DNA of 64,000 nt, from positions 1,092,501 to 1,156,500 of the forward strand of contig NC_092561.1 of assembly GCF_037975245.1 (NCBI RefSeq), read 5' to 3'. Below are positions 26,904 through 57,754 of the stretch, piece by piece (within the stretch, counting starts at the first letter, position 1; each line of letters opens with the position of its first letter). Position numbers and translations under genes: made by a program. Source of the DNA: Apostichopus japonicus (lineage: Eukaryota > Echinodermata > Holothuroidea > Aspidochirotida > Stichopodidae). The notes beneath the pieces were generated by a model. That model ran no database searches, was not told the DNA's origin, and saw only the letters and a program-made list of their open reading frames with translations.

Positions 26904-26909
26904 TTTATT
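26904..26909 (-). terminator. Candidate poly(A) signal of the last zinc-finger exon
   Basis: AATAAA on the minus strand, 107 bases past the stop of the most distal terminal exon (27016). It would end the longest transcript of the NPL-zinc-finger locus. Confidence 0.5.
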
Positions 26910-27015
26910 TTGACTTGAATGCCCATGATAACGGGTATTGTTTTTTCCCTCCAAAGTTTAACCTTCTCATCAAGTTCCAAGAGAAAGTAGAAAATAATTG
27001 ATGTCCTCTGTGCTG

Positions 27016-27614
27016 CTAGCTGGGAGCGATGATATGTTTTCTCTCATGTCTTCGCTTACTCTCGCGATGCGGGAACCGCATCTCGCAGTATCGACATTTG
27101 AAAGGCTTCTCGCCGGTATGAATCCGTTCGTGTTGGGCTCTGGTGGTCTGATCCCTGAATCCGTTTCCACAGAACCGACACTTGTGAGGTCGATCCCTAC
27201 CGTGGATCATCTCGTGATGTTCCTTGTGTTTGATCTGGAGGAACTCCTTGCGGCAGTAACGACACTTGTGGGATACTTCGTGATTCATCTTTGTCTGGTA
27301 ATCGTCGAAAGGTTTTTGACAGATTCTACAAGCAAACTTTGCAGATTGTGTTTCTATCCTTTTCTGGAGGTAAAGTTTGGAAGCAACTCTGTTAGCATAG
27401 CTGTATTCGCTTTGCAGACTGAAACCGTCCTGTCCTTGAACATGATGATCTACCCCTGCTAAATTTCTGGGAGGCAGATTATTCCTTAGGGTTAAACTGG
27501 AATTGAAGGGATGCACATCATCGGCTTGTCCACGGTGAAACATTTCAGAATGGGAGATCAGCTGCAAGAGACCTGGTTTCTGTTTAGATAATGGCTGAGG
27601 TTGTAGGAGCACTA
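27016..27614 (-). CDS. Alternative terminal exon 5 of the NPL-zinc-finger gene (four C2H2 fingers)
   Basis: Phase-1 acceptor TTTTTTTCATCCAG, then a continuous frame to TGA at 27016. Spliced to the constant exons it predicts 444 aa. About 95 residues of low-complexity linker precede four C2H2 fingers beginning at FACRIC, HKCRYC, HKCRFC and FKCRYC. Fingers 1 and 2 abut (NHEVSHKCRYC) without the usual five-residue linker, while fingers 3 and 4 are joined by the canonical HTGEKPF linker. The exon carries its own stop, so it can only be last in a transcript. Predicted role: sequence-specific DNA binding. Confidence 0.88.
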
Positions 27615-28444
27615 CTGGATGAAAAAAAAACGAGACAACATCGGCATAATATCGGCATGGTTACCACTATTCCATATCCTGGAATATCATCAACAGTAAT
27701 AATCATTGTTACATGTAAGCATCATCAAATGGTTTAATATTATACAGCAGGTGGGCACTAAAAGAATCTTAGGGGGAGGGGGGGTGGGGGCACCATGAAA
27801 TTTGGTACCCAATCCGCTTGCCACAGCACTAAAGAATGTACATACTCCTGTGCATTGTCCATCTGTTATATTGAAATATCCTATCAAAAGTAGTCTATGG
27901 GCCTTTATAAACTCCCCAAATTATTCACATATTTTTCTTGTCATACATCTGTAGGCTGCACTTAAAGGGGTGGGGGGGGGGCATACTTTGCCAACCTGTG
28001 ATGTGATATATTACTGCTATTCACCATTACTACTGTACCACCATTATTATGATCATTGCATTATATCATGATTGAAAAATAGTTTCACTATCATTAATAT
28101 CATTGCATTTAATTAATTAACATCGTCACTGGAGGAGGCTTGACCAGGGGCGAACTGGGCCATAAACTGCTACCAAACCTGGTGATCCACCCGGCTGTAG
28201 CTGGAGCCTTGAACCAAGCTTTATACAGTTTGGGGATTTAGGTGAAATTAGCATATTTTGCAGCCCAGAGGAACTCGGCAAGGCAACCTAGCAGAGCCTG
28301 CAGTGCCTCGGACTCGGCAGCGTCCCAGTCAGAATGACCATTTTGAGATTTTAGAAAAAATGATTTCATGACATTTCAATTGCAATATGTCTTTCAAATC
28401 TATCCTCTTCTGGATTCAATATTAAATGGGTGAAGGGAATAAAT

Positions 28445-28700
28445 ATAAGGGGAGAGCTAGGGAAGAAGGGGTGGGGAGAGGGGAGAAGGGGTCGGGAGAG
28501 GGGAGAAGGGGTCAGGAGAGGGGAGAAGGGGTCAGGAGAGGGAAAAAGGGGTAGGGAGAGGGAAGGAGGGGTGGTGAGAGGGAAGTATGGGTGTGGAGAG
28601 GGAAGAAGGGGTGGGGAGAGGGAAGTAGGGGTGGGAGAGGGAAGAAGGGATGGGAAGAGGGAAGGAGAAGAGGGAAGATGAAAGGAGGGCAGTGAGAGGG
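28445..28700. repeat. Minisatellite, about 20-bp purine-rich unit
   Basis: About 12 imperfect copies of a unit like AGGGGTCAGGAGAGGGGAGA. The long ORFs across it on both strands come from the repeat. Confidence 0.9.
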
Positions 28701-29685
28701 GAAGGAGTGGCTCATCACAGGGTGGCTCTTGAGGAGCAATTGTAGTTCTTGAAATGCTCTTTTGTTTGTCCTTATGTTCTGTTTTTTCCTTTGCTGATAT
28801 TTGCAGTTGCTGCATTGATTTGAAGCTAGTATGTATTTCAGGAAATGTATCACATAACATAGAAATGAAGAATGTGAGCAGATATGCCATCATAAGGTTG
28901 TGAAAATAACTGTAATTATTGATACATGAAGGTCACTGAAAACAATTACACATAACAGCTATCAAAGAGAAATAATTAAAATGTTAATATCAAAGGCCTA
29001 ACAATTACTCAAATTTCCCACTTGTTTGCCGCTGTTACAATAATATATATAAAATAAGTTTCATGCATTGCTTTTGGTGAAACTTGTACTGGTATTAAAA
29101 CCCAGATACCAATGTAGTTCATTAGCTTAAGTTTATTTAAAGTAATAAACTTTCACACCAAATAATAAAGATTTTATTTTATTTAACTCCTTAAACTTGC
29201 TGTTTACAGTAGGTGAGAGTAACAGCAATTCAAAAACACATCTGTGGGTGACACAACATTGAGAGTTTGAGACCAACCAGTGGCATAGCTAGGGTCTCAG
29301 GGGTTCCCGGTTCAAAGGTAACAGTGGGGGGGGGGTGACCCCTCATCCTAAGGCTACTTTATTAAGTGCACTTAATTAAGCTATAAATGTAAAAAATACA
29401 GAGTTCTATTATACATGACGTGGTCAGTTGGTTCAAAATATCGTAACCATACCCTTATTTGTTCCAGGACATATTGGGATGTCCTGATTCAACGAACCGC
29501 CTCTGTGACCAACTTATGAAATTATTATTTCCTGATATTAAAATCTCCTTTAAGGTCAAATCTTTGACCATATCTGTTGTTTTATCAATGCTGAAACCTG
29601 ATTTTAAAGTAAACACTTTGTGGGTTTGTTTTAAAGTTCAGTGTCCACCACCACTCAAAAAAAAGTTTTGTAAAAGTATTTATTT

Positions 29686-30278
29686 TCATGATTTTAAATG
29701 CGTCTTTCTGTGTTCCCGGAGATGGCCCTGCTGTTTGAAAGCACTGCCACATGTAGGGCACACAAAAGGCCGCTCCCCAGTGTGGATGCGGTTATGAACC
29801 GTCAGCGCAGACTGCAACCGAAAGGTCTTCTTGCAATATCCGCATTGGAACGGTCTAGCTCCTGTGTGGATTGAGTAATGGGTCATTTTGTTGCTCAGCT
29901 GAGCAAATTTTTTCCCACAAATTTCGCAGTGGTACTTTCTTTCTCCAGTATGCTTTGTCTCATGTATTTTTAGTTTGGACCGGAAGGCAAAAGTGGCCTC
30001 GCAGAAGTTGCACTTGAATCGGGGCTCAAATGGCCTACTCCTTTGGCTACCCAGTGGCAGCCAGTGAGTTCCAGTGGTAATTGGATCATGTGTTCCTGTG
30101 TGTTTCCTAGTGTTTTCTTCTATGCCAATTGTCTCTGTCCTTTCAGTCTCTTGTCTATGATATTGTTGATCGGTGTTTGAAGGGTAAAATGTTGCCCTGG
30201 TCCCGTTGTTGCATTGTGGGTAAGCTGTAATATGGACTTTCGGTTGTTGGCTCTGATAATTCTCGTCATGAATTGGCC
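29686..30278 (-). CDS. Alternative terminal exon 4 of the NPL-zinc-finger gene (four C2H2 fingers)
   Basis: Acceptor TTTCCATCCAACTTAG, phase 1, open to TGA at 29686; predicted isoform 442 aa. After a polar linker come four C2H2 fingers starting FKCNFC, YHCEIC, FQCGYC and FVCPTC, joined by HTGERKY, HTGARPF and HTGERPF linkers. It is closely related to terminal exon 3 (shared KIHETKHTGER, TFRLQSAL versus RFRQQSVL, and AFKQQGH), so the two arose by exon duplication. AATAAA lies on the minus strand at 29684-29679, only two bases past the stop, with more such hexamers further on. Confidence 0.9.
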
Positions 30279-30464
30279 CTAAGTTGGATGGAAATAAACG
30301 AAACGATAACATTTCTTTCTATTGTGAATCAATTCTTTGTTGTGAACAATGTCATTTGTGACTTCATGTGAATAAATAAAAAAGAAATAATTAAAAAAAA
30401 TACAGGGATTTGTTATTAAACACCAAGAAGCTTTACGTTTCCTTAGCTAGATGATTACTAGAGA

Positions 30465-30818
30465 CAGTGGCAAAGCTAGGGGTACTTGTCAGAGGGGGCG
30501 AGAATGGTCTGTAGGGGCGCTTTCGACTTTATCTAAGCGGAGCGCCACCACAGGTTGGCGCGGAGCGTACAGAAATTGTTTGAGTAAAGATACTCCCTAG
30601 ATCGCCGGAAATGACCTTTTCCGGGCCTTGCTAATTTGCAGATAAACGAAGAATAAATAGGTGTCATCGCCAACAAAATGTGAAAAATGCGCAATAAAAG
30701 AGTCAATAATTGCCAATAAGTAAGTGGTAAAAAGCTGAAAAGGGCGCCAGCTGTCCATTTGAGTCCGTCAGGGGGGGGGGGCATCCGCCCCCCTGACTGT
30801 ATGGACGCTCCGCCACTG
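30465..30818 (+). mobile_element. hAT-like MITE with 8-bp target-site duplication (family M2, copy 1)
   Basis: The 354-bp element starts CAGTGGCAAAGC and ends, in reverse complement, CAGTGGCGGAGC. It is flanked by a perfect 8-bp duplication ACTAGAGA (30457-30464 and 30819-30826). Eight-bp duplications and CAGTG-type termini are typical of hAT transposons. No transposase is encoded. It is inserted between terminal exons 4 and 3, and a diverged relative lies at 55429-55716. Confidence 0.88.
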
Positions 30819-30826
30819 ACTAGAGA

Positions 30827-32430
30827 CTTCTGGTAACTATCATGTGTTGTTACGTCTTCAAGACTCAAGTAACGTTATCACTGTAGGCAAGCTATGAACT
30901 GTCACGTGATATGTCACATCCTCAGCCACTTCTGTATGTCTGTCAATGTACATACAACATGTTATTATTACCAAGTCAGGTGAGTGAGTGATACAAATGA
31001 AGTAGGTTTCACATTCACACATAAAGTACTGCAGGCATGCCTATAGGAAACGAAGAAAGAGCTGTTTATAAGTTTCTGGTTTTCTTGGATGGTTTTGCTT
31101 GGCTACGATTTGCTAGTACAGCAAATGGGATACTTAATTTTAGTGGCTTTTAGCTTAATAATTCAAGTGATATGTCAGGAATTGGGTAAAATATTCAGTC
31201 AACCATGTTACTTTGAAGGTTTTAGCTACATTCTTTAAGTCGCAATGTGTGTTTGTCAAATTTGAACTTCGACCTTTCCAGCCTACTGCCCTAAAAGCTC
31301 AGTGCAAATAATACCGTTCTATGCAATTTTCATCTTAATAATCATTATTATTATTGAGATATCTGTCATTAAACATTTTGAGCTGAATAAAATTCTCCAG
31401 ATAGTAGATTCTACAAACTTCTATCAAAATTTGCAAGCCCCACCCAACAGATCATGTGCCAATCAAATCTCTCTGCTTTGTTAACGACCATTAGGCCTAC
31501 AGTAGGAAGTACTTTCACTTTCGTGGGTAGCTTGTCTTAGATCATTTCTCTTGAATATTATCTTTCTTTCAGTCTACTAGTAAATATGGGTTACATTTGT
31601 GTAATGAACATGCTGATACGGGCGGTTGCAGTGACTTTACGGTGAATCATTAATGCCAGAAGGGCAACAGAAAATAAATTTCTCTCTTTCCATTGCGACA
31701 GCTTTTCTCCATTAAACCCACCTGGTCAGAGTATAAGGAACACTGAATCTGCTTCGGAAGTCTGTTTTCCGAAATTCATTAGCGAACACGTATTGAGACT
31801 TTAATTACTTTGTTCAAATCCACTGGGAGGATGAATGCTTCCATTCCCAAATTTGTATAGCGCCCCCAAGTTCCACATTTGGTTAGCGCCCCCAATTCCA
31901 TATTTGTACTGCACCACCTTCTTGAAGTCCTCTAAGCATCATCCTAGTTCCTGTTTGAATGCTAGAGATGTTAATTACAAGCAGATGAGAGAATTCAGCA
32001 TCCGCAGAGGGCAAATGTTGAATTAGAGTAAAAGTCAATAGCGCCATCTATACAGCATTGTGACCAATGTTTGGAGGGGTAATAAATTGTTCAAAATTTA
32101 GCAGCCTAGTGCAGATAACCCCCATAAACAGTTGGGCAGAGAGCTGTACTGACCCCTACAGTATGTGCAATTGGGGTCCTAACTAAATGTGATGACCAAA
32201 GCAAAGCTAATAAATGGATCCAGCAACCTATGTGATATTATAGTTTTCAGTAGACTACTTGGACAAACCTTAAGCTGTAGTTTGAATTGTTATTGTTTCC
32301 ATTCTGGTTTTGTGAATGAGGAATAAATAAGGTTGGGGTGGGGGAGGGGATGGATGGGGCGGGGTAGAGTGGGAAGGATGTGAGCAACGGTCTATATATC
32401 TAATGCCAAACAGCTTTGGGTGAAAGTTTC
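30827..32430. other. Region between terminal exons 4 and 3, no coding sequence seen
   Basis: AT-rich intronic or intergenic DNA of the zinc-finger locus. No exon with fingers or with a phase-1 acceptor plus a long frame was found here. Confidence 0.45.
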
Positions 32431-32726
32431 GACCCCCTTCTCCTTTTAACTTAGATGAAGCAGAGGTCTTGTCAACAGCTTTTAAAAACAATCTTACATG
32501 GCACAGTGATGGAAAGTGACCACCACACCATCCAGTTATGAAGACCTATGGTTACAGAAGCTTCAAATACTCTGGCTCTTATCTCTGGAACAAGTTACCA
32601 GATCACATTAGAACATGCTCTACACTTTCTACATTCAAAGTCTACTTAAGACCCATCTTTTCACTTGTTCTTTTGTCTACTGATTTGGCACTATATAAGT
32701 CTCATTTATTATTATTATTATTATAG
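32430..32726 (+). mobile_element. Non-LTR retrotransposon 3' end with (TTA)n tail
   Basis: The frame at 32538-32726 reads YGYRSFKYSGSYLWNKLPDH, the conserved extreme C-terminus of L2/CR1-type reverse transcriptases. It is followed by GCACTATATAAGTCTC and (ATT)n at 32706-32725. The left boundary is approximate. Confidence 0.75.
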
Positions 32727-32980
32727 GATAGGTCATGCTGCATATGAATATCACCCAATCAGGGGAATAAAAATATAGGACAATGGTAGGAATACCATTC
32801 AATTATAAAGATAAATATCTACAGTATCTATTGATAGGTTTGATGAGAAGCCTTGCCATTCATTTCAACCGCTTGACATGCTAGTATACAATTACCATTG
32901 TATTGTAATATTAAACAATATTAACAACAAAATTGTAATCATACATCATTGTACCAAGTAATATTATATAAGAAACAATA

Positions 32981-32986
32981 TTTATT
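32981..32986 (-). terminator. Candidate poly(A) signal after terminal exon 3
   Basis: AATAAA on the minus strand about 280 bases past the stop of terminal exon 3 (33264). A private poly(A) site is expected for a mutually exclusive last exon. Confidence 0.35.
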
Positions 32987-33263
32987 TATGTTTTACATTA
33001 TATTTATAGTACGATACATTATATTATTGTATTGCGCAATTGGGTGTGTATTTAGTCTTCCTCTGTCATTCGTCACAATTAAGAGCTCATGACACTAATT
33101 TACAGTTCCAGAAATAACCCTCTTAAAATACTTTGTCTTGTTTGGTCCATTCTAGCATATATCTCTTTGTGGCCTCTCCTTAGTATAGATAACTGGTCAC
33201 ATAATTTCTGTTCAATACCAATGTACCAAACGTTGGTATTGATAATTACCAATCATTCAATTA

Positions 33264-33802
33264 TTAAAGAATCATGGGTTTGTTGTGTTTCTTTGTATGT
33301 TCCTTCACATGTCCCTGCTGTTTGAAAGCCTTCCCACATATTCCACAACTATACGGCCTCTCTCCAGTGTGAATCCGCTCGTGAGCTTTGAGCACCGATT
33401 GCTGCCTGAAACGTTTCCCACAAAATGTACACTGAAACGGACGGACGTCCGAGTGGATTTTCTCGTGGGTGATCTTATTGCTTTGTAATCTAAACCGTCG
33501 CCCGCAGATGGCACACTGGTAACGTCTCTCCCCCGTGTGTTTAGTCTCGTGTATTTTGAGCCTCGAGGGGTACAAGAACACCTCGGAACAGTATCTACAT
33601 TTGAGGTTAGGCATCCCCCTCTCTTGTCTTATATCCTCCTCCTCCGGGGTAGGGGAGTTAGACTGCTCATTGAGGAGGAGTGGTTGATTGACTTCTGGAG
33701 GTGAGGACCCTTCCATTGGCTCTAGTAGTTGGTCCAGAAGTCTATTTTGATTTCCGTCCTGGGGTTGTGGGCTTGATCCAATACTTGATTGGTCATTTAG
33801 TC
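33264..33802 (-). CDS. Alternative terminal exon 3 of the NPL-zinc-finger gene (four C2H2 fingers)
   Basis: Acceptor GTCCCAAATTAG, phase 1, open to TAA at 33264; predicted isoform 424 aa. An acidic and Gln/Pro-rich linker precedes four C2H2 fingers starting LKCRYC, YQCAIC, FQCTFC and YSCGIC. Linker 2 is degenerate (HSDVRPF); the others are canonical. It is the closest relative of terminal exon 4. Each finger has the CX2C...HX3H metal-binding pattern, so DNA binding is expected. Confidence 0.92.
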
Positions 33803-35665
33803 CTAATTTGGGACAGAAAATACAGGAAATAGATGAGGACCTCTATGAATTGATGTAGAAAACGGAAGATGCTGATGGGGGGGGGTGTGAAAGGATGACC
33901 TTTTTTATGCAAAACTTGTTGAATGTGAGCGCCATGGATATACAGTAATGAAGATATTGAGAGAAGGTGAGATTGTGACAAATTTTGGTCTTTAACGCAA
34001 CAGTTCGTTTGAGTAAATAAAGGTTCTATGAATGTTTTGAAATTTATGTTGTATTTGATGAGCTGTAAAGAGTGGTACTTTCCCTTCACCTATCATCCTT
34101 GTAGGGGCTACAGCATTTATACCCATATGAGGTGAGAAATAGTCATAGGGGGGAGCAGGGAATAGGAATTCCTGTGGGACTTGCAGTTGTATTGAATTGC
34201 ACATATTTGTTAGTAGTTTTAGGCTCATCTTGGCCAATTCATTTAGTCTTGTGTGAATTTAAGTCTCGCCTAAACGCCACTGATCAGGACAATACACTGA
34301 ATGGCCAAAATTGTTCCATCATGTACACTACAGAAAAAAAGAACCCTTGAATCTTGAATGCAGGAGTTACAGAGAAGGAGAGAGAGGTGAGGGGGGGGGC
34401 AGGGGAGGGGATGGAGAAGGGCAGGGAGGAATCTGATGGAATGGACAATCTTAGCCAACTTTGTAAATTGCACTTTTCTTGGTAGTTTGAGGATCATATT
34501 GACATACATGGGGCTGTACACCAATAGGTTGTCTATCCATTAGGTATGAGGTATGGCCATGCCTATGACCAGACAGCAGATACTCTAAGTTACAAAAAGT
34601 ATATAAAAAATGTATATTATGAGAGTTACATTAGTAACAACACGGTTCAATCCAAGAATGTCCAAACATGAATATAAGACATCATAGGTAAAGCCAAAAT
34701 TAATTTCAACATTTGAGTAACATGATCTTTATTTGGTCTTAGAGCTCTTGCTCTTTCGAAAGAATTCAAAACAACTCCATTTTTCTTTTATACATGTTCT
34801 ATCTAAAATGTCTCCAGCAGAAATGATGATCCTCTCTGTGTTCACTGCAGAGTTTACTGTGCTTTAAATACATGTACTCACTTTACTGTAGATACCTAAA
34901 ATTTACTGCACAATCACGATCCCATCGGCAGGGCCACATTATCCCTCTCGGGCCCTATAGTACTTTACAATACATGCTTGGGGCCTTCCCCTGTTATTCA
35001 GTATTGCAGGCACAATCCAAAATTAGGATGTTCACTTGGTATATATATGTTTTCTGGAAATGTTCACAGAGGGCTGTTCCACTGTGAGGAGCCATCCATA
35101 CAGTTAGTTACCTCATCTGGCCGCTGGATAACCCAACATTACCCACATGACATCCATCTATGTCAAATCTATTGTATCCATAGACAAGTATGCAGCATAA
35201 ATACATTTGGAATTAACTATTATCAGATAAGATTAATGTATTCCTACTCTATCTGACATCTAACCTGCTTAAAATCAGTGATATATCACAGTTATAAAAA
35301 AACAGTAATATAATCTGTGATATCACAAAACCTGGATAACAGCGACCAAACTTACTTCCATTTTTAATACTGAAAGGAATGTGAAACTGACAAATTCACT
35401 GATGCAATTAATAAATATGTACGTCATCAGAACTTTAATGACGACGAAAAATTGTGTAGGAACCTGAACTATAGGCAGGCAGGAGGAGACGGAAGAAGTG
35501 GCGAGGGGGGATGGGGCAGGACTCATCAATGACTCAATGACGGAATAATCTATGAAGGCTGGTATAACTTGATCAAAAAAGTTTTGTTTTTAAATTTTCT
35601 ATATAACATATACTTAAAGATGTCAGTACCGTCATCCCTTGACTGGATTTTTTTAATCATATTCA

Positions 35666-36240
35666 TCATCTTTTGTGAGTTTTCTCGTGATCCTTTAAAT
35701 GTGGCTTTTGCCGAAACCTTTTGGAGCAATAGTCACAGCTATAAGGGCGTTCCCCCGTATGAGTCATCATGTGCTGTCTCAAGAAGTTACTGAGTCGAAA
35801 TGTCTTTGGGCAGAATTTACACTGATAGGGTTTCTCCCCCGTATGGATTCTCTCGTGGCACCTCAGGTAGCACGGCTGCTTAAAGGAGAGTCCGCAGTAC
35901 TGGCAGGGGTAAGGCTTTTCTGTCTGGCGATCCGCTCGGCGCAAGTAGGGTCTGGCCACTGAAGTAGCGGACCGACCCGCGAGTGTAACGTGATCACTAA
36001 CTGAGGTGGATGTTTGACGGTCTCCCCTTATGCTCATTTGGTCGTGCGGCGGCGTCGTCTGAATAACTTGTAATGTGTCGCCGTGACTACGGTATCTTTT
36101 ACATGATTCTAGATTACTGACATTCGTGCTTTGACTTTTGTGTATTAGTGCTGCTCCAGTCGTGTGACCCAGGTGCCTAGAACTGTTAGCAGCATGAGGA
36201 TACCTAGTAGTGGTTATGAAGCCAGTTGACCCAATTTGAC
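35666..36240 (-). CDS. Alternative terminal exon 2 of the NPL-zinc-finger gene (three C2H2 fingers)
   Basis: Acceptor TTTTTCCTTGTCATAG, phase 1. The frame is open from 36240, well upstream of the first internal ATG at 36037, to TGA at 35666, which shows the exon is entered by splicing. Predicted isoform 436 aa. A Ser/Thr/His-rich linker precedes three C2H2 fingers starting YPCQYC, YQCKFC and YSCDYC, with canonical TGEKPY and TGERPY linkers. Finger 1 has an extra Cys in its helix region (KQPCYLRCH). Confidence 0.92.
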
Positions 36241-38520: not shown

Positions 38521-39191
38521 TCACTTAGGAATCTGTCTTGACTTAACAGGTACTCTGTTATGGTGTTTCCCTTGATGGACACGTAAATGCGAGTTCTGTA
38601 TGAACGTCCGACCGCAGAGCTCGCAGGTATAAGGCCGCTCTCCTGTGTGTGTCCGCAGATGTTTTTTCAATGAGTCCTGAACCCTAAAGGTTTTCAGGCA
38701 GAGTCTGCACTCATATGGACGTTCTCCTGTATGAATCCTCTCGTGCCTAATCAGGGTGCCCTCATGCACGAAGATCTTTCCGCAAAATTTGCATTTGAAG
38801 TTTTCATTGGGATCCAGAGATCTCTTCTTCGAACCGGTTCTAATCTTAGTACCCCTCCTAAAGCCAATTTCGGCAGATCTCCCCACGGGCAAATCCCAGT
38901 GAGTTTTCCGGTTAGACGTGTGATACAAGGTCTTCACGTTTGTCATTTCCGTACCGGGTGCGCTTTGAGTAGGATAATTCTTAGAGTATGTCATGAGTGA
39001 GTAGTTGACAGACGAAGGGATGACAGTTGGTCTGAATTGTGTCTGTTGTGTTTTTGAACCTCTTTGTATAAACCCCCCACCACCACCTCCTCCTCCTCTT
39101 CCTCTGACAGTATTTCTGACTCTTAGATCAGGGTGGGTGTCATAGAATTGGAATGGTGTTGATGACTCAATGTTTGTTTCCACGGGGTGTC
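38521..39191 (-). CDS. Alternative terminal exon 1 of the NPL-zinc-finger gene (three C2H2 fingers)
   Basis: Acceptor CTCATTGTTTTTTGTAG, phase 1, open to TGA at 38521; predicted isoform 468 aa, the longest. A long linker with a run of nine glycines precedes three C2H2 fingers starting FKCKFC, YECRLC and YTCELC, joined by canonical HTGERPY linkers. A basic tail follows (PVKSRQIPK). This is the terminal exon nearest the constant exons, 3.7 kb from the last of them. Confidence 0.92.
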
Positions 39192-39466
39192 CTACAAAAA
39201 ACAATGAGAAAAAAAAATTGGGTAAGTGGACTTATTTGATGATTTGCCAGTGTGTAGTATGTACGCTAGGATTATAGGACAAGAGTCCTGGTTTGGGTTA
39301 AAAAATGAGCAGGTGCAGCTTGATCTCCAGGATTAGTGTCAGGATATTATCAGACTCTTTGTTTGCATTGATGGTGTTGAGAGGGTGTAACTTAACTGTC
39401 AATTTCTTATGAAACAATTTTCCACCAAACAGATCATGTATGGTACTTCAAGGGTTGGGGAGTAGG

Positions 39467-39840
<374 letters not shown>

Positions 39841-42800
39841 CAGCTTACATGCAATTTTATAACTTGACAAAAGATATGGGGGATGACTGACCATTTTTTG
39901 TACATTGTTATTTTTGCAGACGACATGAAGGAACATTTTGACACTTTGTCTATAAATATTAGGGTGCTTACAGAAGCTGAGTTCCAATGGTGTGGTTAAG
40001 TTAAGAGTATTTCGAGCGGGTTTTCTCCATTAATTCCTATACAGGCCAGAGGAAAACGTCGGTTGGAGGGATAGAAACAAATTAATATACCGTTACAGAA
40101 AAATAAAATTTTATGTCCAAGGGTAGGTTACTAGATTGCAGCAGTGAATGGTAATGGATAAGCTGGCTAGAGGAAAAACTTGGTTGGAGCAATGGGCCAG
40201 ACAAAATAACAGACTCCAAAAAAAGTGTACATGGGGGAAAATATGAGAGGGTAGGTTACTCAACTGCAGCGGTCAATAGTTATGGATAAGTTAGAAATGA
40301 CACAAAATCAGGGAATACATTTTAATGTTCACATTTTGTGTAGCATTTTCAATGGCTCTGAATTGTGTCTTTCTTTGAATACCATAGTTCCTGAGTAAAA
40401 AAAAAAACACTTCTATACATCTTTAAACTTGTTTAGCCACTTGAGACCATATATGTATAGCATCTTGGGACATGATGCAATACTGGATAAATTATGTCTT
40501 GAAAATAGTTCGGAAAAACTATTAAATGTCCGTTATGAGATTTTCTCAAGTGTCTAGATTGAGGGATGATCTGTGGGTGACCATACATATTTTGCTAGGC
40601 CATAGTCATTGCATTGGCCACAAATTTTATTATGCACATGATGCACTGAAGTGTACTGTGAAGTCCTCAGTTCACCCCCCAAAATGTGACCAAACATGGG
40701 TTTAGTCTGCTTTCGATAATGTTGTTAGTCTTGAGTAGCCCTGAAAAAAGATTGTCATGGGCCAAGAACTATGAATAACATAAGCAACTGTTGTGATAAA
40801 ATGTCAGGAGTTCAACACATCAAAAGTCACAATATAATATCACAGGTAATTTAACCACTCTTAATAATTGTTACTAACTCTTACTAAATCATAAGGCACC
40901 ATCCCATGTGTATTGAGAATGGGGTCACACGGTAAGCTGTACGGGGCCAATTTTTTATGGAATTTATTTGTCTGCTTGTCCCTTGGACAAGCAGGTCATA
41001 CATTTTGGTCCGAAAACAAAAGTACCAAAATAACAAGGGCTGATCAAATATGTACACTGTAGGATGTGATGTGTAGGTTTGGCAAAACATCTCAGACAAC
41101 TGCAGGACCATCAAAATTATCACCAGTGTTTGCAACATGTAGCTGTACCTCAGGACACAGCAGAACACGGGTGGGCAAAGCACACCCTGCGAGAAACCTT
41201 TCAAAAACTCAATGATACGACCAGAGAGACAGTAGCTTAGAACAAGATATGACATATCCATAAGTATGAGGATTTAGCATTTACAGTTCCTACTAATGAA
41301 AGAATAGTTTTCAACATTAAACAGATGAATGACACATAGAACTTTAGGATCGTTCATTTCCTTTTTTAATCTTGGGTTTCCACTTTGGGGTCACGCATAC
41401 TGTACATCCTGCGGTGTTGTGTTGCAGCACATAGACTGGGTGCAAGAGTTTACTACGGTCTGCCAGACAGACATCATGTGCCTCGTTGCTAGGCAGATGA
41501 GCTGCTAAGCTGACCACCCACTACAGTTTACGGAACAGAATGACTGTACATTTACAAAATGTCTTTCATCGTTCCCATTGGTAGAAAGAGGACTAACTGA
41601 TCTGAGTATAGTGTAACGTATATATATACCTGGCCACACATGAAGTGTTAGGAACCATCTTGCCGATGGACGGCATACATAGCACGTGGTCATAGTCGGA
41701 ATGTCCAGAGCCACATGGTAGTTTAGACTGTACTGTTGGGCTAGGTACACTTGCAACCTCTGTCACCCATTGCAACCTCTGTCACACAGTGCAAGAGTTG
41801 CAACGCAATCGAACAGGCACAGTCGGAAAACTATCTAGTTTCTGATTTAGCTGTTGCCTTCACCAAACTCTGAACCACCGACACTTGTCCCAACCCTGGC
41901 TCTCCCATCGTATTTGAATCATATAACACATACAGGCTACAAAAGACATTCTGCACAAACTCATATGTATACTTACTATCCTAATTAGCAGGGCCTGGCT
42001 ATAACCTACTACAGCACAGTAACAAAAAACAGGGCATCACAAGCCAGCTGACACTCTCTTTACTTTGACTTCTCTAGGCTGTCTTTGTAACATGACATTA
42101 AGATTCAGAGCTTCTCTCCTTCATTTAAGAGGAAGACTTAAAGGCTAAGTATGACTTATGACTTCTCTAGGGTGTCTTTGAAACATTACATTAAGCTTCA
42201 GAGACAGTGCATCCCGCCTTCATTTTAGAGGATGACTTAAAGTCTAAATATAAGTCTTGATTTTTCATAATCCAAATATTCAATGCTAGTAATGTATCAA
42301 TAGCTATTCCTGGTTTTCAGATATTCACCTTAAAAATATGGTTCATATCTGGAATGATTCTTTAATGCTACATTTATGATGTCCAGCTCCTCAGGGAATG
42401 CCTAAATAAAAATAATGTAACTCCTTTGTTTTAGAAATTCTAATGACACAACCAATGTATATGTTTCCTAAACTTTACATACACAACAGAGCACTCCATG
42501 ATTATTCATTTAACACACATTCGTCATTTGACGAGAAATTTGTAAAACACTGTAAAACATGTTTACTTGAGGCCATGAAAGTACGTTAATTTTCCTATTG
42601 AGTCTGTGTGTTAGACTAAGTGGTCCAGCCACCTATTGAGTCTGTGTGTTAAACTAAGTGGTCCAGCCACTTTATTTGATGAGCCTCAGATATTTAGAAC
42701 GAGTCCTGTCTCAAACATTCAAAGTTGTACGGAAATATAACCTGGACAGATGGCGGTGTATTTTAAATAGTCTACAACATATCATCAAAATTAAATTATT

Positions 42801-42867
42801 TCCTTAAGCTTATCAGACTCAATATGCTAGTTGTGCATTTCATAACCCTATGAAATAGATTAATTAC
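39841..42867 (-). other. Long intron between the constant exons and the first terminal exon
   Basis: No supported exon. It includes a 38-bp tandem duplication at 42595-42670 and part of an interspersed repeat ending TCTGGAATGATTCTTTAA near 42365, which also occurs near 5050 and 49260. Confidence 0.5.
42595..42670. repeat. Tandem duplication, 38-bp unit x2
   Basis: Two adjacent near-identical copies of a 38-bp unit beginning CTATTGAGTCTGTGTG. Confidence 0.9.
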
Positions 42868-45800
42868 CTGTAGATGTTGAAGGTAGATTTATTGTTTGAC
42901 CTCTGTCCTCTCTTTCTATCTGTTGTGTTGGTTCATCTTCTGTCGTGTCTGCAATTGTGTGGATTTCCTCTTTAACATCAACCAATTCTACACCTGCAAT
43001 TGAAATTCATATATTCCAAATGAATGGCTTGCTATATTTGAATATTTGCAAGTTACCTCACATCAACATTCCTGTTGAGTGCTTTCAAAAGCAGAGTACC
43101 AAAAGTACAACATGTTTTTGGGTGGAAAGAGGGCTTGTACTCTTCAGTATTAAACCTCTGAGGTCAGCATAGCTAATTTATACGCTAAAACAACCTACTT
43201 TGTGGTTACTATGGCTTGTTTGTACTCTTCAGCAACAAACTTTGTGGTTACTATGGCTATATTTGTACTCTAAAACAACCCACTTTGTGGTTACTATGGC
43301 TATATTTGTACTCCTTAGCAACCTACTTTGTGGTTAAGATGGCTATATTTGTACTCCTTAGCAACCTACTTTGTGGTTACTATGGCTATATTTGTATTTT
43401 TCAGCAACCTACTTTGTGGTTACTATGGCTATATTTGTACTCCTTAGCAACCTACTTTGTGGTTAAGATGGCTATATTTTTCTCCTTAGCAACCTACTTT
43501 GTGGTTACAATGGCTATATTTGTATTCTTCAGCAACCTACTTTGTGGTTACTATGGCTATATTTGTACTATTCAGCAACCTACTTTGTGGTTACTATGGC
43601 TATATTTGTACTCCTTAGCAACCTACTCTGTGGTTACGATGGCTACATTTGTACTCTTAAACAACTTATGTTGATGTCATCACAACAATATTTGTACTTT
43701 TCAGCAAACTAACAACTGGTTAAATTTTCAGCTACACTCTCTTTCAGGTTTCCAGTTTATTAATTTATTACTACTTATTATTTATCCTTACCAGCATTAT
43801 CAATAGGTTCCTGAGTAGTTTGCTTAGATTCAGAGGTTAGCGATCGATCCATCATGTTTCCTGAACTATCTGATGTTTGCACTCTTTCATCTGTTTCCGG
43901 CTGGTATTGGTCACGGTCTTCCGAATATTCAACAGAATATTTCTCCTCGTCTACCAAAAGAAATACAGATAACTTCAATATCACCACCAGAAATGCGCCC
44001 ATTTTTACAATTTCTGTTATTTTCAGGTTGCCTATCAAAATCCATCATTGCCTACAGACTTCCACAGAAACCATGGGACCTTCTTGTGCGTGCTGCTGTT
44101 CCACCTTTAACTTATAACCCTACACTCATTCAGCAGGGTACTTTCAAATGTGATCGTACTTCGAGATGCATCGTCTGCAGCCACCACATTGTTGAATCCA
44201 ATTCCATCACCAGCCACTGCACCCAACTCACACACAAGACTAAGGGTCACATCACTTGCACAACCACTAATATCATCTATCTGATATCTTATAGAGTTTG
44301 CAGCATCCAGTATGTTGGTGAAACCAAAACCAACCTCAAGAAGCGGTTCTATGGTCACAGATCCACAGTGGACAACATGAAGACTGAGACCCCGGTTGGA
44401 GAACACTTTTACCTTCCCTACAATACCACTAATGACATGTCCCTACAGGGGACCGAATCCTTAGGTAGCCCTGCTGACCTAGTGCGAATTAGCAAAGAGA
44501 GGCTGTGGTTGCAACGCCTTCCCACCATTCAACTTCATGGGCTCAACATTCAGGAAGGACATGACTAACCCTTCTTCTACTTCTCCCCCTCCTAGCTCTT
44601 TTCTCCGCACTTTCCTGTCTTTGTCCTTCTGCAGTTTATTCTTCTCATAATCTTCTCTTTGTCCTTCTACAGTTACCTCCTCTCCCTTTCCCCTGTTTTT
44701 TTCTTTCTTCTCTCCATCCTTTGTCTACTAATCTCCTTACATCAATCTCTTTTGTGTTCACCCTGCTCATTAACCTGTCTGTATTCTGTGCATGTATTTG
44801 TCCCTTCTGTTACTGTTACTTGTCACTCAGCCTCTGAAGAAGATCCTGCTAGGATCGAAATGTCAGGCCCACTTACTTTTACAAATATTTTATATCTTAT
44901 TATCAAGAGCAGTTCTCACCTTCTCTTTCATGAGGATGGCGATCTTCTTGATTCATAGCTGGGAAATACGAGGCATCCATCCCTGAGAAATCCCCCGAAT
45001 CATCTCGGGGTACTGATGCATCTTCAAAACAAAATTTGTCCAGTCACTTTAAATGTTTGCAAAGCCTTACTTATAAACTTTTAAAGATTACAGTTTGCAC
45101 TTTAATCTGTGTAAAATGGTACTGGGCATAAGATTGCAAATTTTGATCAAACTAATACATTCCTCCTGAATATATTTTCATCAAATTAAGGGCAAAGGGC
45201 AAATAATTAATGACTTCTACAAGTTTGATTCCACCATCAACACTTTGTTGTCATTTTTGTAACAACATTGTCCAAATCCAAAGAAAATTTCAAAAATTCT
45301 GAGACATTGTCAATACTTTTAAGTCATTAATTTAACTTAGATTGTGAAGCTAAATAACCTACATCATTGTGGAGCTATTGCAGCATTGAATAGTATAACA
45401 AATTGATCAAAATCATAGTTCTTATGAAGTGTATTTGTTTGCTAGACACAAAATCAGAAGATAAATCACTTAAGAACTCACCATCAGCAAAAAAAAACAA
45501 AACAAAGAGAACAAGAAATGTGTTGACCTCTACAAAGACAGGGTACAGGGAACAGGTTTACTTAATTGGCGTGATAAGAAATAAGTTTTAAGTTGATGGC
45601 ACTATCACATTTATTTATCACTTATTTATCCGGCATGGAAGCGTTACCTACCGAGGTTAGCTTCTTCTATCCAGTCATCAGCTTGGACACCTGCCTCAGC
45701 CTCATCCATCATGACTTCAGACGGCATGTAGGAATAACCAGTAAGATAAACCACATCTGCAAAAAGAAAGGTAACGCAGAGATCAATCAGGACTGTTCTT

Positions 45801-47780
45801 AATTCTGGGGGTGTTGAAAAGCGCAAACCTTTTCAAATGTATCAAGTTAGCATAAATATTGATGGAATTTCTATAAAATATTTAAAATGGAGAAATAGTA
45901 AAAAAAAATTTGTTCTACAAAAAATCATCTACCATTATGACATTGGTGGGCACCTACTGTAATCCACTTCTTGTAGTAAGGAAGCGTTTATCAGGTAAAG
46001 ACAGTTACATTCAAAAAGTCATTTTCTGAAGTTAGCAACAAGACATTGAGATGGGGTTTTCAATTAACAGTGCATCATACTTTAAATGTAACATTATCTG
46101 TCCCTGAAGCATCCAGGCCAAAAGGATTTACTGAAGAGGATGTATGACGATGTTTCCAACTATATTCTTTATATTGTCTTACTTGTTCCTTGGACTGAAA
46201 AGGTGACCTTGTCATTCGGCATGAGTTTCAGGTCTAGATTCTGTTGATAAGTGACACCACTGACCAGAGTGCAAAGAAGGTATTCTGCTGTGCTGGTCCT
46301 CATCACCACATGAGAAAAGCTATCACTCTTGGCACCTGGGGAACAAATAATGAAATAAAAGATATTAATGTCACTACCGTTTCAACAGACATTTTTGGCC
46401 AAAAAAAAATTGATCAAATTAAGCATGACCGAATGCTCTAACCTTCAGATACCCAAAGGATAAACATGATTATATGCATTGGTAATGTGGGACAATTTTG
46501 CAATAAACCTTAGATTTTATGACAGCATATGTATAAGGTGCATGGTCATGTTCTTCACAGCACTTAACAGATCCTATCTGCAGTAGTTCCAAGGAGCTAT
46601 AAGAAGCCCATTTCTGACACTACAATTGCTCCTCCAAGTTTTATTTTTATTTCAAAATTATGTACTCCATGAGGAGTTACTGTGTGGTGTAAATTTTGGA
46701 CTCTAAAAGAAAGAAATGCCTCAAATGAGAGGAAAATGCATTAGAAGTGGTACTGAAATATGACAGCATGAGGACACTGATAATGAAGAGGTGTTATAGC
46801 GTAACAAATGTGTGATTTAATTAATGTTCGCATCAACTGTGCGAGTGTGAGGGTATTAAGATTGTTTAAGCGTGTGTCGGTTGTGAGTGTTGCTTGGGAT
46901 GCCCGATTTGTTTGAAATGGTGTGTGTTGCGCGTGTTTTCTTTAGATAGGGTTTGGAACGGATTGGGAGGCAGTTATTACTTAGAGTTTATAAAGATAAG
47001 GCGATGTGTTCTGTTATCTTAGTGTTACTTAGAGTTTGCAAAGACAAGACGTGTTCTATTATCTCGGTAAGACTCTGTTGAAGTTTGGCAACACATACAC
47101 TTTGACGTAGTGACAAATATAACCCTCTGTGACTGGAGTTAAGTTATTTGTTCCATATGGAAATGTGCTAGCTGGAGGGCCAACTGCGTACAGTGAAAGC
47201 TTACCAATTCTCTATTGAGACGGTACAGCAAGACTGCATTTGTTGTGAGGACACAGGTAAGTGAAGGGCTAAGTAAAGTTCAACATGAGTGCATTACCAC
47301 TGTTTGAAAAAAGTGAGGGGAGCAGTACAAAAAATCTGCTCCCGGGTACCCATTTGTTAATTTCACACGGTCCCCCTGGTACCACGTTCATTACGTGTTG
47401 CACAGATGGTAATGTCAGATCGATCCTACCTACAGTAGTTCCACAGAGCTATGTGTTTTTAGTACTTACCATCTATACCACTATAAGTATTGTATAATAG
47501 TTTGTTTTTCATCATGAAAGATGAAAATCTTGTGAGAACCAAGTGTTGGGTCAAATTGAAAAACTGTTCAAGCACAGGACAAAACTTGTGTTTTAGTTGA
47601 AATGCTATGGAGGAATGATGATATACATAGATGGCAATCATGGCTTATGTGGGTTTTTTTGCTCTAATTTGAAAAGAGTTTCTATACCTAAACATCCTCT
47701 GCTTTCCATAGTTGCCATGGAGAGCTGAATCTCGCCAACTATGACTTCTGTTTGTGCCTGTCCAGGTTCTAAAGTCATAC
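42868..47780 (-). CDS. Constant exons of the NPL-zinc-finger gene: nucleoplasmin-like domain plus acidic linker
   Basis: Six exons: 47780-47688 (ATG at 47778), 46335-46183, 45756-45652, 45021-44920, 43950-43792 and 42993-42868. Every internal junction is phase 1 and internal exon lengths are multiples of three (153, 105, 102, 159, 126). They encode 245 residues plus one base, a G, which completes the first codon of any of the five zinc-finger exons. Residues 1 to about 95 match the nucleoplasmin-like (NPL) fold of nuclear FKBPs and related histone chaperones: EYLLCTLVSG, LDLKL, DKVTFSVQG and VVYLTGY appear in family order. NPL domains oligomerise (known). Residues 96-245 are acidic, Ser/Thr/Gln-rich and probably disordered, with a SUMO-type site VKEE at Lys211. 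The start is taken at the first ATG because the likely upstream exon has an in-frame stop. Predicted product: an oligomeric nuclear DNA-binding factor; function unknown. Confidence 0.85.
43190..43675. repeat. 43-bp minisatellite, about 11 copies
   Basis: The unit resembles CAACCTACTTTGTGGTTACT followed by ATGGCTATATTTGTACTCCTTAG, period 43 with rare one-base indels. It lies in the intron between constant exons 5 and 6. Because 43 is not a multiple of three, a long plus-strand ORF (43216-43674) passes through three different translations of the unit; it is not a gene. Confidence 0.95.
44025..44905 (+). mobile_element. Penelope-like retroelement fragment with GIY-YIG endonuclease
   Basis: From about 44025 the plus strand encodes a 5'-truncated Penelope C-terminus ending at TAA 44568: DLLVRAAVPP, a Cys-rich segment (CDRTSRCIVCSHH), then the GIY-YIG core IIYLISYRVCSIQYVGE with TNLKKRFYGHRS. 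The reverse transcriptase is missing. A 3' region of about 330 bp follows, containing a hammerhead-like motif. It occupies most of the intron between constant exons 4 and 5 of the NPL-zinc-finger gene, antisense to it. Confidence 0.85.
44830..44868 (+). ncRNA. Hammerhead-ribozyme-like motif in the Penelope 3' region
   Basis: In order: GCCT (stem I), CTGAAGA (catalytic box CUGANGA), GATCCT-GCT-AGGATC (perfect six-bp stem II), GAAA (second catalytic box), TGTC with the GUC cleavage triplet, and AGGC closing stem I. Stem III is essentially absent. Penelope-like elements are known to carry hammerhead motifs. Activity of this minimal form is uncertain. Confidence 0.65.
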
Positions 47781-48555
47781 CTGCAGAAGAAATTAAATAG
47801 CATCGATTACCCAACTTACATATCTTTTATGCATACTCCATCTATATGATAAAGAAAATCCAAGAATTTAATCTTCCATCTATGCTTCAAGGTCTTGAAT
47901 TGAGCTGAATTTGAATACTGACAGACCCAGCAAAGATCAAAACAAAAAATAATTTAACTGTGGAGAAATTAAAACTTTTTAGTCTTTATTTCATATAAAT
48001 TCTCCTATATATACTAGGCTATCTTCCATTCGCCCCCCTCCCCCGCCCCAATGAAATTTCTCTGGTTGCTTTGGGTTTGATTAGGAACTTACCAAAACTG
48101 GGATCTGGATATCTACTTTTTCATTTCATTTATGCCTTGTTAATCTAATGAATTCAACTATACTTACCCCAAATCATTCTAGCTTTACAAAATTGCTGGT
48201 TTACAGAGAAACCTTCCTTGTGATTTATTCATGTGAAACAACTTTTATCATCAGGGCCTGAGGCAAACCTGTAAAGATTGTACGAACAAGAAGAAATATA
48301 TACTTAATGGTTCAAATTAAACATAGGCCTAATGAAGCTTACATTTACTCCCTAAAGCAAACTGGACAATTTTAGGAGTAGGACATTGGAATTACTTGTG
48401 AATGAAAGTGTCATATGATACAAAACTAGGTGTAGGCCTAAGCATTTGTTATAGGTTGGGAATGTTTAGTTAAGTAGAAAAAAGGATCAGGAGGAACACT
48501 TAAGTCCCCATCAAGGACCCAATAGAGAGAGAAAAAAAACTGAAGACACAAATAC

Positions 48556-49160
48556 TCAGACCCGATTACAATGCTTAAAGTGCTTGTCCAAAGCAATCTT
48601 AAGCCCATTGACATTACTTGCAAGTACAACTTTCTCAGGCAAACCATTCCACTCATTCACAACCCTATTAGAAAAGTAGTTATGCTGAATATTAATCCTA
48701 CTATGTGACTTTTGGAGTTTAAGACAATGACCTCTGGTACAACTCCTGTTAGCAAACATGAAAAAGTCGGCAATGGATAAATTGTCGAAGCCATACACAA
48801 TCTTGAAAACCTGGATCAAGTCCCCACGTAACCTCCTAAGCTCCAGTGTGGTGAGATTCAACAGTTGTAACCGCCTATAATAAGGAACACTCTTTAAGGA
48901 ACTAATCATCCTAGTAGCCCTCCTCTTGACCTTTTCAAGTACTTCCTTATCTTTAGCAAAATAAGGGTTCCAAGCCTGCACAGCATACTCCAGATGAGGC
49001 CTAACCAACTGCTTATAAAGCCTAACTACGATGTCCTCTTTCAGAAAACTGAAGTTCCTCTTGATCATACCTAAAACCCGATTACCTCTTTTAGCAGCTT
49101 TAAGACAATGTTTAGAAGGTTGCAGAGATGAACCTGGGCCTACTTGATATTGAGGCAACC
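48556..49160 (-). mobile_element. Non-LTR retrotransposon reverse-transcriptase C-terminus, truncated
   Basis: A 200-codon ORF ending at 48556 reads VRLYKQLVRPHLEYAVQAWN, KVKRRATRMISSL, YYRRLQLLNLTTLELRRLRG, FFMFANRSCTRGH and NYFSNRVVNEWNGLPEKVV, the C-terminal thumb and connection region of a Jockey/CR1-like non-LTR element. It differs from the L2-type fragment at 25.4 kb. It has no endonuclease or RT core and lies upstream of the first coding exon of the NPL-zinc-finger gene. Confidence 0.85.
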
Positions 49161-49596
49161 TTCAAGAAAAGAATGAATAAAGTACTTTGTTTCCATCTAG
49201 GCTAGCCTAGCTAATCCAGTTATCAGGACATTCAGCTTTAAAATAAGCATAAATCTCTGGAATGCTACTAGCCTACTGTAGTACTAGTGGTACGTAGTAC
49301 TAGCCCAAGTTAAACTTAAAGGCCAAATAGGTTATGTTATGGTCCACTCCTTAGTGGAGACCTAGGCTAGCATAAATGTTAGTCGATTATTTTTAAAATA
49401 AGCTAATGAACCATGAAAATATCGGTTTAATACATCTTGCGAGTGGTAGTCTAAAACAAAGCTTTTTGAGCTAGCTGTTACGGTGAACTACCACAGCCTA
49501 GCGTTAACCTTTCGTTACATTTCTTTTTTAGGCTTAGCCTAGCCTAGTAATAGGCTAAATTTAGACCTCATAATCATATCTGTCGAAGTATCTTAC

Positions 49597-49700
49597 CACT
49601 CTCCTTAAGCTCCTGATAGGTGGCTATTACTTTAACAGTATCGATAACTCTTTGTGGTTTGAAAATTGAAATTTTTCCCGTTCACAGAATTAGAAAGGAA
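49597..49700 (-). promoter_or_regulatory. Probable non-coding first exon of the NPL-zinc-finger gene
   Basis: A strong donor GAGAGTG|GTAAGATA ends at 49597 on the minus strand. The preceding frame is open for about 30 codons but is closed upstream by TGA with no ATG, so it is best read as 5' UTR spliced to the ATG exon at 47780. The right boundary is a guess; the promoter would lie just beyond it. Confidence 0.35.
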
Positions 49701-57504: not shown

Positions 57505-57754
57505 ACAGGATACCGATAAATCTGTACGGATTACAACAAAGCAAACTTATTAGTGTTCAATAAAAAAATGACAAAAACATATTCGGAGAGTTTTATTTGA
57601 ACAATATCGTAAGAGTGATGCATATTAATATATAACTCACATCTCAAGGGTGGATGGAGGGGTAGGAGGGGATGGGGTCATTCCTCGATAAAGGAACATG
57701 TCGACTCTAAACGTAAGCAGTATTGGCTCAAATTTATGCAAGAAAGATTCCCTA

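Follow-up and report, generated by a model that had tools for sequence, protein, structure and literature searches.

The sea cucumber Apostichopus japonicus (Echinodermata, Holothuroidea) has a minus-strand gene in which a common N-terminus is followed by alternative terminal exons that encode C2H2 zinc fingers. The gene lies in a stretch of 64,000 nucleotides of a chromosome, contig NC_092561.1 (C1 below; NCBI RefSeq assembly GCF_037975245.1, positions 1,092,501 to 1,156,500), here called the window and numbered from its first letter; the window is without any N. The constant part of the protein has an N-terminal nucleoplasmin-like (NPL) domain and an acidic linker, and five terminal exons, A to E, lie downstream of it (Table 1). 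The best explanation, which we hold to be very probable, is that alternative splicing of terminal exons in cis gives NPL oligomers with interchangeable DNA-binding ends.

Public protein records contain the constant part with different ends. When the constant part was searched against 5.8 billion proteins, 25 were found, three of which, from A. japonicus, are identical to it along 100% of its length. Joined to B, to C and to E (acceptor 27611), the constant part equals the predicted isoforms P0001 (X6), P0002 (X7) and P0003 (X4) letter for letter. In the NCBI pipeline, several X-numbered isoforms per gene are made where transcript alignments call for them. The first-pass annotation of this DNA, made from the letters, had proposed one constant N-terminus joined to alternative finger ends, and this is borne out by the three exact public isoforms together with two paralogous loci that repeat the layout.

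The six constant exons proposed in that annotation are genuine minus-strand frames bounded by splice sites, and all introns of the constant part have GT donors, AG acceptors and phase 1. The exon starting at 47780 had been taken as the first coding exon, but there is one more upstream, at 48177-48168, where ATGATTTGGG joins the exon at 47780 in phase 1 to give MIWGMTLEPG... The proteins are thus 4 amino acids longer, in agreement with P0001-P0003.

The five separate terminal exons, for which phase-1 acceptors at 39191, 36240, 33802, 30278 and 27614 and individual stops had been claimed, are confirmed as open frames, and the three or four fingers said to be in each amount to 3, 3, 4, 4 and 4 for A to E. 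A strict C2H2 pattern applied to six frames of the window has 17 matches, all on the minus strand and all inside the five terminal exons, where a looser pattern finds 18 fingers. C2H2 families are the top Pfam matches of all five ends, and no FKBP family is found among the Pfam matches listed (up to 25 per end). The original codon counts of 469, 437, 425, 443 and 445 are reproduced as 468, 436, 424, 442 and 444 amino acids plus stop. The acceptor of the last end needs correction, because the public isoform takes 27611, the second AG of the tandem acceptor CAGTAG; use of 27614 gives 448 amino acids with one extra valine. The presumed base-contact residues, which in C2H2 fingers are at positions -1, 2, 3 and 6, differ among all ends of the locus (5/5). 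Over 111 residues, C and D show 60% identity, whereas the best pieces of other pairs reach 28 to 49%, which suggests duplication within the locus.

End D is found in the same arrangement in a relative. The record P0004 is a 447-amino-acid open frame on a contig of 2,079 nucleotides, from a source ('lgn') that we take to be assembled public reads, and its orthologous constant part is joined to end D at PSTST-G, the junction at the end of constant exon 6. When P0004 is compared with the window product D, 72/89 residues are identical in the NPL domain, 80/150 in the rest of the constant part, 23/80 in the linker and 95/110 in the finger region, and the presumed base-contact residues are equal in 16/16 positions. 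A comparison with related species had been put forward as a check of the locus, and it shows end D conserved with the same junction.

The gene belongs to a family in holothurians. Three protein searches gave 39 different proteins, all from A. japonicus, Holothuria leucospilota or sources without a species name. Several sets of these share a constant part but differ in their ends: P0001/2/3, P0013-P0023, P0024/25, P0026/27, P0029/30, P0035/36 and P0005/6. The largest set, P0013-P0023, has 11 records with nine distinct ends and isoform numbers up to X20. A junction of the PSTS type is present in some paralogous proteins, and no finger was seen in P0009, P0030 and P0034. A PF17800 search of the whole 671.6-Mb assembly gives 30 exon matches that all pass the curated cut-off; 11 of them are on C1, and five contain stops within the matched stretch. 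In a tree of the NPL domain 4 of 17 inner branches are well supported, and it was used solely for the group formed by the window gene, P0004 and P0006 (support 100/99). P0006 bears the public name '46 kDa FK506-binding nuclear protein', which is not borne out, as it has the NPL domain only and no FKBP domain was found in it. Names transferred by the NPL domain are misleading.

Terminal exons were sought downstream of the window gene and of four others of the 30 NPL places, and two of these have far bigger arrays than the window gene. The minus-strand locus of P0013-P0023 (C1:7,178,001-7,258,000) has its constant exons at 7257.8-7254.2 kb, ending with a phase-1 donor, followed by 29 open reading frames (ORFs) with several fingers from 7246.2 to 7184.0 kb (about 62 kb); three single-finger ORFs are left out of this count. 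The best-scoring acceptor is in phase 1 in 29/29, and the distinct isoform ends of P0013-P0023 map, 9/9, onto nine of the 29 ORFs. The plus-strand locus of P0007 (C1:7,122,001-7,198,000) has 22 multi-finger ORFs at 7134.4-7183.6 kb, leaving out one single-finger ORF, again with phase 1 in 22/22; among the 39 proteins only P0007 is assigned to this locus, as far as matched. The two arrays are convergent (L047-L052, L043-L046, L039-L042), and ORFs were allotted to either locus by strand. Only two finger ORFs are found on the plus strand of 7178001-7258000, ending by 7183648. Against an expectation of one third, the uniform phase has binomial values of 1.5e-14 (29 ORFs) and 3.2e-11 (22 ORFs), but these values and the joint figure of 51/51 are inflated because tandem duplicates are not independent. 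As in the window, the presumed contact residues differ among all ends of each array (29/29 and 22/22). At the smaller places, there are five ORFs in 20 kb around P0011, all in phase 1, and one ORF in 18 kb around P0010; P0026/27, from a relative of P0010, show two ends. The paralogous loci are like the window gene in having an NPL domain, alternative ends on a common constant part in several sets and phase 1, and the two large ones differ from it in their longer constant parts and in array size (29 and 22 ends versus five).

The isoform records of the minus-strand array also show how the ends are combined. P0016 and P0018 have the end of P0014 with one or two extra pieces before it, and these pieces are linker parts of terminal exons near 7,219,416 and 7,218,409 (L039, L046, minus strand). 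They stand in genomic order ahead of the end near 7,216,912, and the first piece is followed by a GTAAAC donor. A skipped end can therefore give its linker as an internal exon while one finger set per protein remains. The ends had been called mutually exclusive; this holds in that one finger set is seen per isoform, but not in the strict sense, given that the paralogous locus splices linkers of skipped ends into two isoforms.

A number of observations weigh against a single gene with alternative finger ends. The records that join B, C and E to the constant part are predicted X-numbered isoforms and not reads. The shared phase had been offered as proof against a chance series of zinc-finger genes, but in the window alone its weight is only moderate; the isoform records and the paralogous loci give better support. 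That all joined lengths are multiples of three is true, but it follows from the phase already counted and adds no evidence of its own. A simple, self-made acceptor score places the best site in phase 1 in four of the five window terminal exons, the exception being exon C, where a phase-0 site ranks above the recorded acceptor. A crude phase-1 acceptor near the start is also found in 14 of 45 other window ORFs of at least 100 codons. In a control of six unrelated long tandem-finger ORFs on C17 (L003-L008), the best acceptors are distributed 1/4/1 over phases 0/1/2, so that finger exons may favour phase 1 anyway and phase in a single locus is weaker evidence. In each of the five window ends, an in-frame ATG follows the preceding stop and comes ahead of the first finger, so that, by sequence alone, the ends could have separate starts there. 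P0006 (H. leucospilota, in the NPL group of the window gene) and P0005, nearly alike in their constant parts, have ends without a finger that match none of the five. In P0030 (A. japonicus X2) the paralogous constant part of P0029 is joined to a long end without C2H2 fingers, which might, as a guess, be a transposon-derived terminal exon. Finally, no 6- or 7-mer upstream of the 51 acceptors survives the number of tests, and no common regulatory motif was found there, a result that speaks against trans-splicing as well.

Taken together with the many other C2H2 clusters in the genome, the in-frame ATGs, of which that of D lies 12 codons ahead of the acceptor, could mean a chance arrangement in which an NPL gene is followed by small, independent zinc-finger genes in a tandem cluster. 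This is very improbable in our view. The three public isoforms are exact joins of constant part and end, which already refutes independence for B, C and E if these isoforms rest on reads, and P0004 has the constant part and D in one frame. In the large arrays the phase of the best acceptor is uniform, and 23 of the 51 ORFs lack an in-frame ATG in the stretch from the upstream stop to the first finger, so that they cannot be complete independent genes. A different possibility is a genuine locus in which not all of the ends work, with A and perhaps D being relics or very rarely used. Among the matches of the three protein searches, which reach only relatives sharing 5-residue words, no record of end A and no A. 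japonicus record of end D is found, though B, C and E are present. D is however strongly conserved in another species, and the frame and all three fingers of A are intact, with an acceptor among the stronger ones (score 7.8), so we consider this rather unlikely, and end A is probably used as well.

Separate transcripts could also be joined in trans, with promoters before individual finger exons, as in mod(mdg4) and partly in lola. The layout is the same as in mod(mdg4), whose terminal exons have independent promoters according to the available passages on that gene (PMC12692577), and about 62 kb, the span of the array of 29 ORFs, is long for a simple choice by read-through. Trans-splicing nevertheless appears quite unlikely here. 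The same passages place mod(mdg4) ends on both strands (PMC12692577), unlike the fingers of the window, which are all on the strand of the constant exons; in the paralogous region, 7122001-7178000 has no fingers on its minus strand and 7183649-7258000 has none on its plus strand. Because the finger exons lie downstream of the constant exons on one strand, cis-splicing suffices. Moreover, the pieces of neighbouring terminal exons in P0016 and P0018 follow one another as they do in the genome, which, if the records rest on reads, favours a single transcript running through several terminal exons.

The oligomerisation expected of cis-spliced products with alternative ends would depend on the N-terminal domain. 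NPL (PF17800) is the sole Pfam family that matches the constant part (249 amino acids) at E<=1, with E=3.5e-18 for residues 2-93 and model positions 1-92 of 94. A search of solved structures with the single sequence gives weak matches (best 0.016), whereas a profile of 13 family members matches the solved NPL domains of Drosophila FKBP39 (2.9e-7) and Arabidopsis FKBP43 (4.5e-7), and weakly those of plant HDT1, HDT2 and HDT4. An AlphaFold2 model of P0001, based on an alignment of 13 rows, has a low mean confidence (50.8) and a predicted template-modelling score (pTM) of 0.25. It has eight strands in residues 2-93 with a per-residue confidence (pLDDT) of 51-78 by block, values below 50 for residues 96-354, and three finger helices in blocks of at least 93. 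Foldseek aligns the model to the FKBP43 NPL domain (TM by target about 0.77) and to fingers of the Zif268 type. The model and the profile matches thus point to a nucleoplasmin fold for the N-terminal domain. The linker that follows (residues 96-249) contains 43 aspartate and glutamate residues and 11 lysine and arginine residues in 154 positions, and is probably disordered.

Comparison with other NPL proteins shows both likeness and difference. The accessible text of one study describes NPL cores as pentamers with moderate and indiscriminate histone binding and sorts NPL proteins into NPL-FKBPs, HD-tuins and nucleoplasmins (PMC4414354), and full-length FKBP39 is described, in the part of the source available, as a tetramer with tentacle-like tails and a charged, disordered stretch after the NPL domain (PMC5225439). 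The window products resemble NPL-FKBPs (Drosophila FKBP39, yeast Fpr4, plant FKBP43/53) in having an N-terminal NPL domain and then a charged disordered stretch, but they have C2H2 fingers instead of an FKBP (prolyl isomerase) domain. The plant HD-tuins (HD2 proteins) have an N-terminal NPL domain and a C-terminal C2H2 finger in the part of PMC4414354 available. They differ in that the legend there names a C2H2 zinc finger, while here there are three or four fingers per end, alternative ends and an animal host. An animal protein with an NPL domain and several C2H2 fingers fits none of the three classes of PMC4414354.

The first-pass annotation likened the layout to insect lola and mod(mdg4). 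The likeness in layout stands, with a constant N-terminus of an oligomerising type and many alternative C-terminal ends joined at one junction, but it is not one of descent, as the constant domain is NPL and not BTB. The finger exons here also follow their constant exons on a single strand. Pfam shows no BTB domain in the constant part (E<=1), and the gene is therefore not a member of the lola/mod(mdg4) family. In the sections of the sources at hand, 17 of the 20 lola isoforms are said to differ in their C2H2 ends, and mod(mdg4) is given no fewer than 30 isoforms, most of which carry FLYWCH domains, while TTK-type BTB domains are reported from arthropods only (PMC11426971); mod(mdg4) is said there to employ trans-splicing (PMC12692577). 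The placement of a lola-like locus outside insects proves right, since the host is a holothurian echinoderm. As to the further claim that no locus with this domain set had been described outside insects, none was found in the literature searched (mostly without subscription papers; titles, abstract openings and some passages), which also contained no animal NPL-C2H2 gene and no lola-like echinoderm locus. A preprint on the Holothuria glaberrima genome from 2026 reports 167 C2H2 genes, and a term search of its main text finds no mention of nucleoplasmin, FK506 or alternative splicing (PMC13228809). The kind of locus is thus known, but its domain, lineage and scale outside insects seem to be undescribed as far as the literature searched shows.

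Under alternative terminal-exon splicing in cis, the transcript would start at a promoter upstream of 48177 and run through the array. The one donor after 42868 would be spliced to one terminal exon, each with its acceptor, its stop and presumably its own 3' end, and one finger set per transcript would be chosen by splicing coupled to 3'-end formation. The NPL core would oligomerise the product, with the acidic linker as a flexible tether, and by analogy with known NPL proteins the ring would present several finger sets. One chromatin-associated core might in this way reach different DNA sites via finger sets with different targets, and different isoforms could mix within one oligomer.

Single loci in which one oligomerising domain is supplied with many DNA-binding ends are best known from insects, in which they act in the wiring of the nervous system and in chromatin architecture. 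It is possible, although we would put it somewhat short of an even chance, that a family of splice-fed libraries of DNA-binding ends arose in sea cucumbers independently of insects, with many NPL loci, a common ring of the histone-chaperone type and well over 50 different finger sets. Rings that mix isoforms would then show several DNA specificities at once, as a counterpart of insect BTB architectural proteins. If the design arose a second time, without relation to insects, in echinoderms and on an NPL core rather than BTB, it would have been reached repeatedly, and its needs (one junction, shared phase, oligomeric core) would be separable from insect history. Comparison of the two lineages would also help to test the reasons for such loci and their need for trans-splicing. 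Sea-cucumber biology would gain a large set of candidate transcription factors hidden by automatic names such as 'FK506-binding nuclear protein'.

Elements that might control the choice of end were also sought. Poly-C runs of at least 8 are found within 600 nucleotides upstream of four of the five window acceptors (B, C, D and E; runs of 9-13), an association noticed after scanning, with a chance of 0.002, 0.010 and 0.026 by three controls. It is not repeated in the arrays (6/29, P 0.10; 2/22, P 0.39), and poly-C was dismissed as an element of general control. The donor intron and the acceptor regions can pair over stretches no longer than those in shuffles. Poly(A) signals occur in the gaps between terminal exons in 4/4 cases in the window and in 22/28 and 17/21 in the arrays, but AATAAA is common in AT-rich DNA and these were given no weight.

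Table 1. Coding segments of the NPL-C2H2 gene and the following poly(A) consensus in the window
Feature	Position	Strand	Remarks
First coding segment, ATGATTTGG then G (MIWG)	48168..48177	-	donor GTAAGT next; P0001-P0003 begin MIWG; NPL match from residue 2
Constant exon 1, start of NPL domain	47688..47780	-	93 nt; translation same in P0001-P0003
Constant exon 2, NPL core	46183..46335	-	153 nt; PF17800 genome match C1:1138681-1138851
Constant exon 3, end of NPL and start of acidic linker	45652..45756	-	105 nt
Constant exon 4, acidic linker	44920..45021	-	102 nt
Constant exon 5, acidic linker	43792..43950	-	159 nt
Constant exon 6, ends ...LPSTST + G	42868..42993	-	126 nt; common donor GTAATT after 42868
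Terminal exon A, Gly-rich linker and 3 C2H2 fingers	38521..39191	-	product 472 aa
Terminal exon B, linker and 3 C2H2 fingers	35666..36240	-	product 440 aa; joined product = P0001 (X6)
Terminal exon C, linker and 4 C2H2 fingers	33264..33802	-	product 428 aa; joined product = P0002 (X7)
Terminal exon D, linker and 4 C2H2 fingers	29686..30278	-	product 446 aa; similar end in P0004
Terminal exon E, linker and 4 C2H2 fingers	27016..27611	-	product 447 aa; joined product = P0003 (X4)
First AATAAA past the stop of exon E	26904..26909	-	consensus match only

The introns and flanks of the gene contain several other features. A long array of GAT/GAG and a 13-nucleotide repeat (39464-39840) lies a few hundred bases upstream of the acceptor of A, the end without a record. 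The intron between constant exons 5 and 6 has a tandem array of about 11 copies of a 43-nucleotide unit (43191-43665). Between constant exons 4 and 5 there is a plus-strand ORF (43828-44568) with a GIY-YIG endonuclease match of 22.1 bits against a cut-off of 22.6, which presumably resembles a Penelope-type element. Upstream of the first coding exon, an ORF of 201 amino acids (48556-49161, minus strand) has no Pfam match at 0.001 and resembles, we assume, the tail of a LINE reverse transcriptase. An uninterrupted ORF of 460 amino acids with leucine-rich repeats (LRR_8, 3.9e-25) is found at 56164-57546 on the minus strand.

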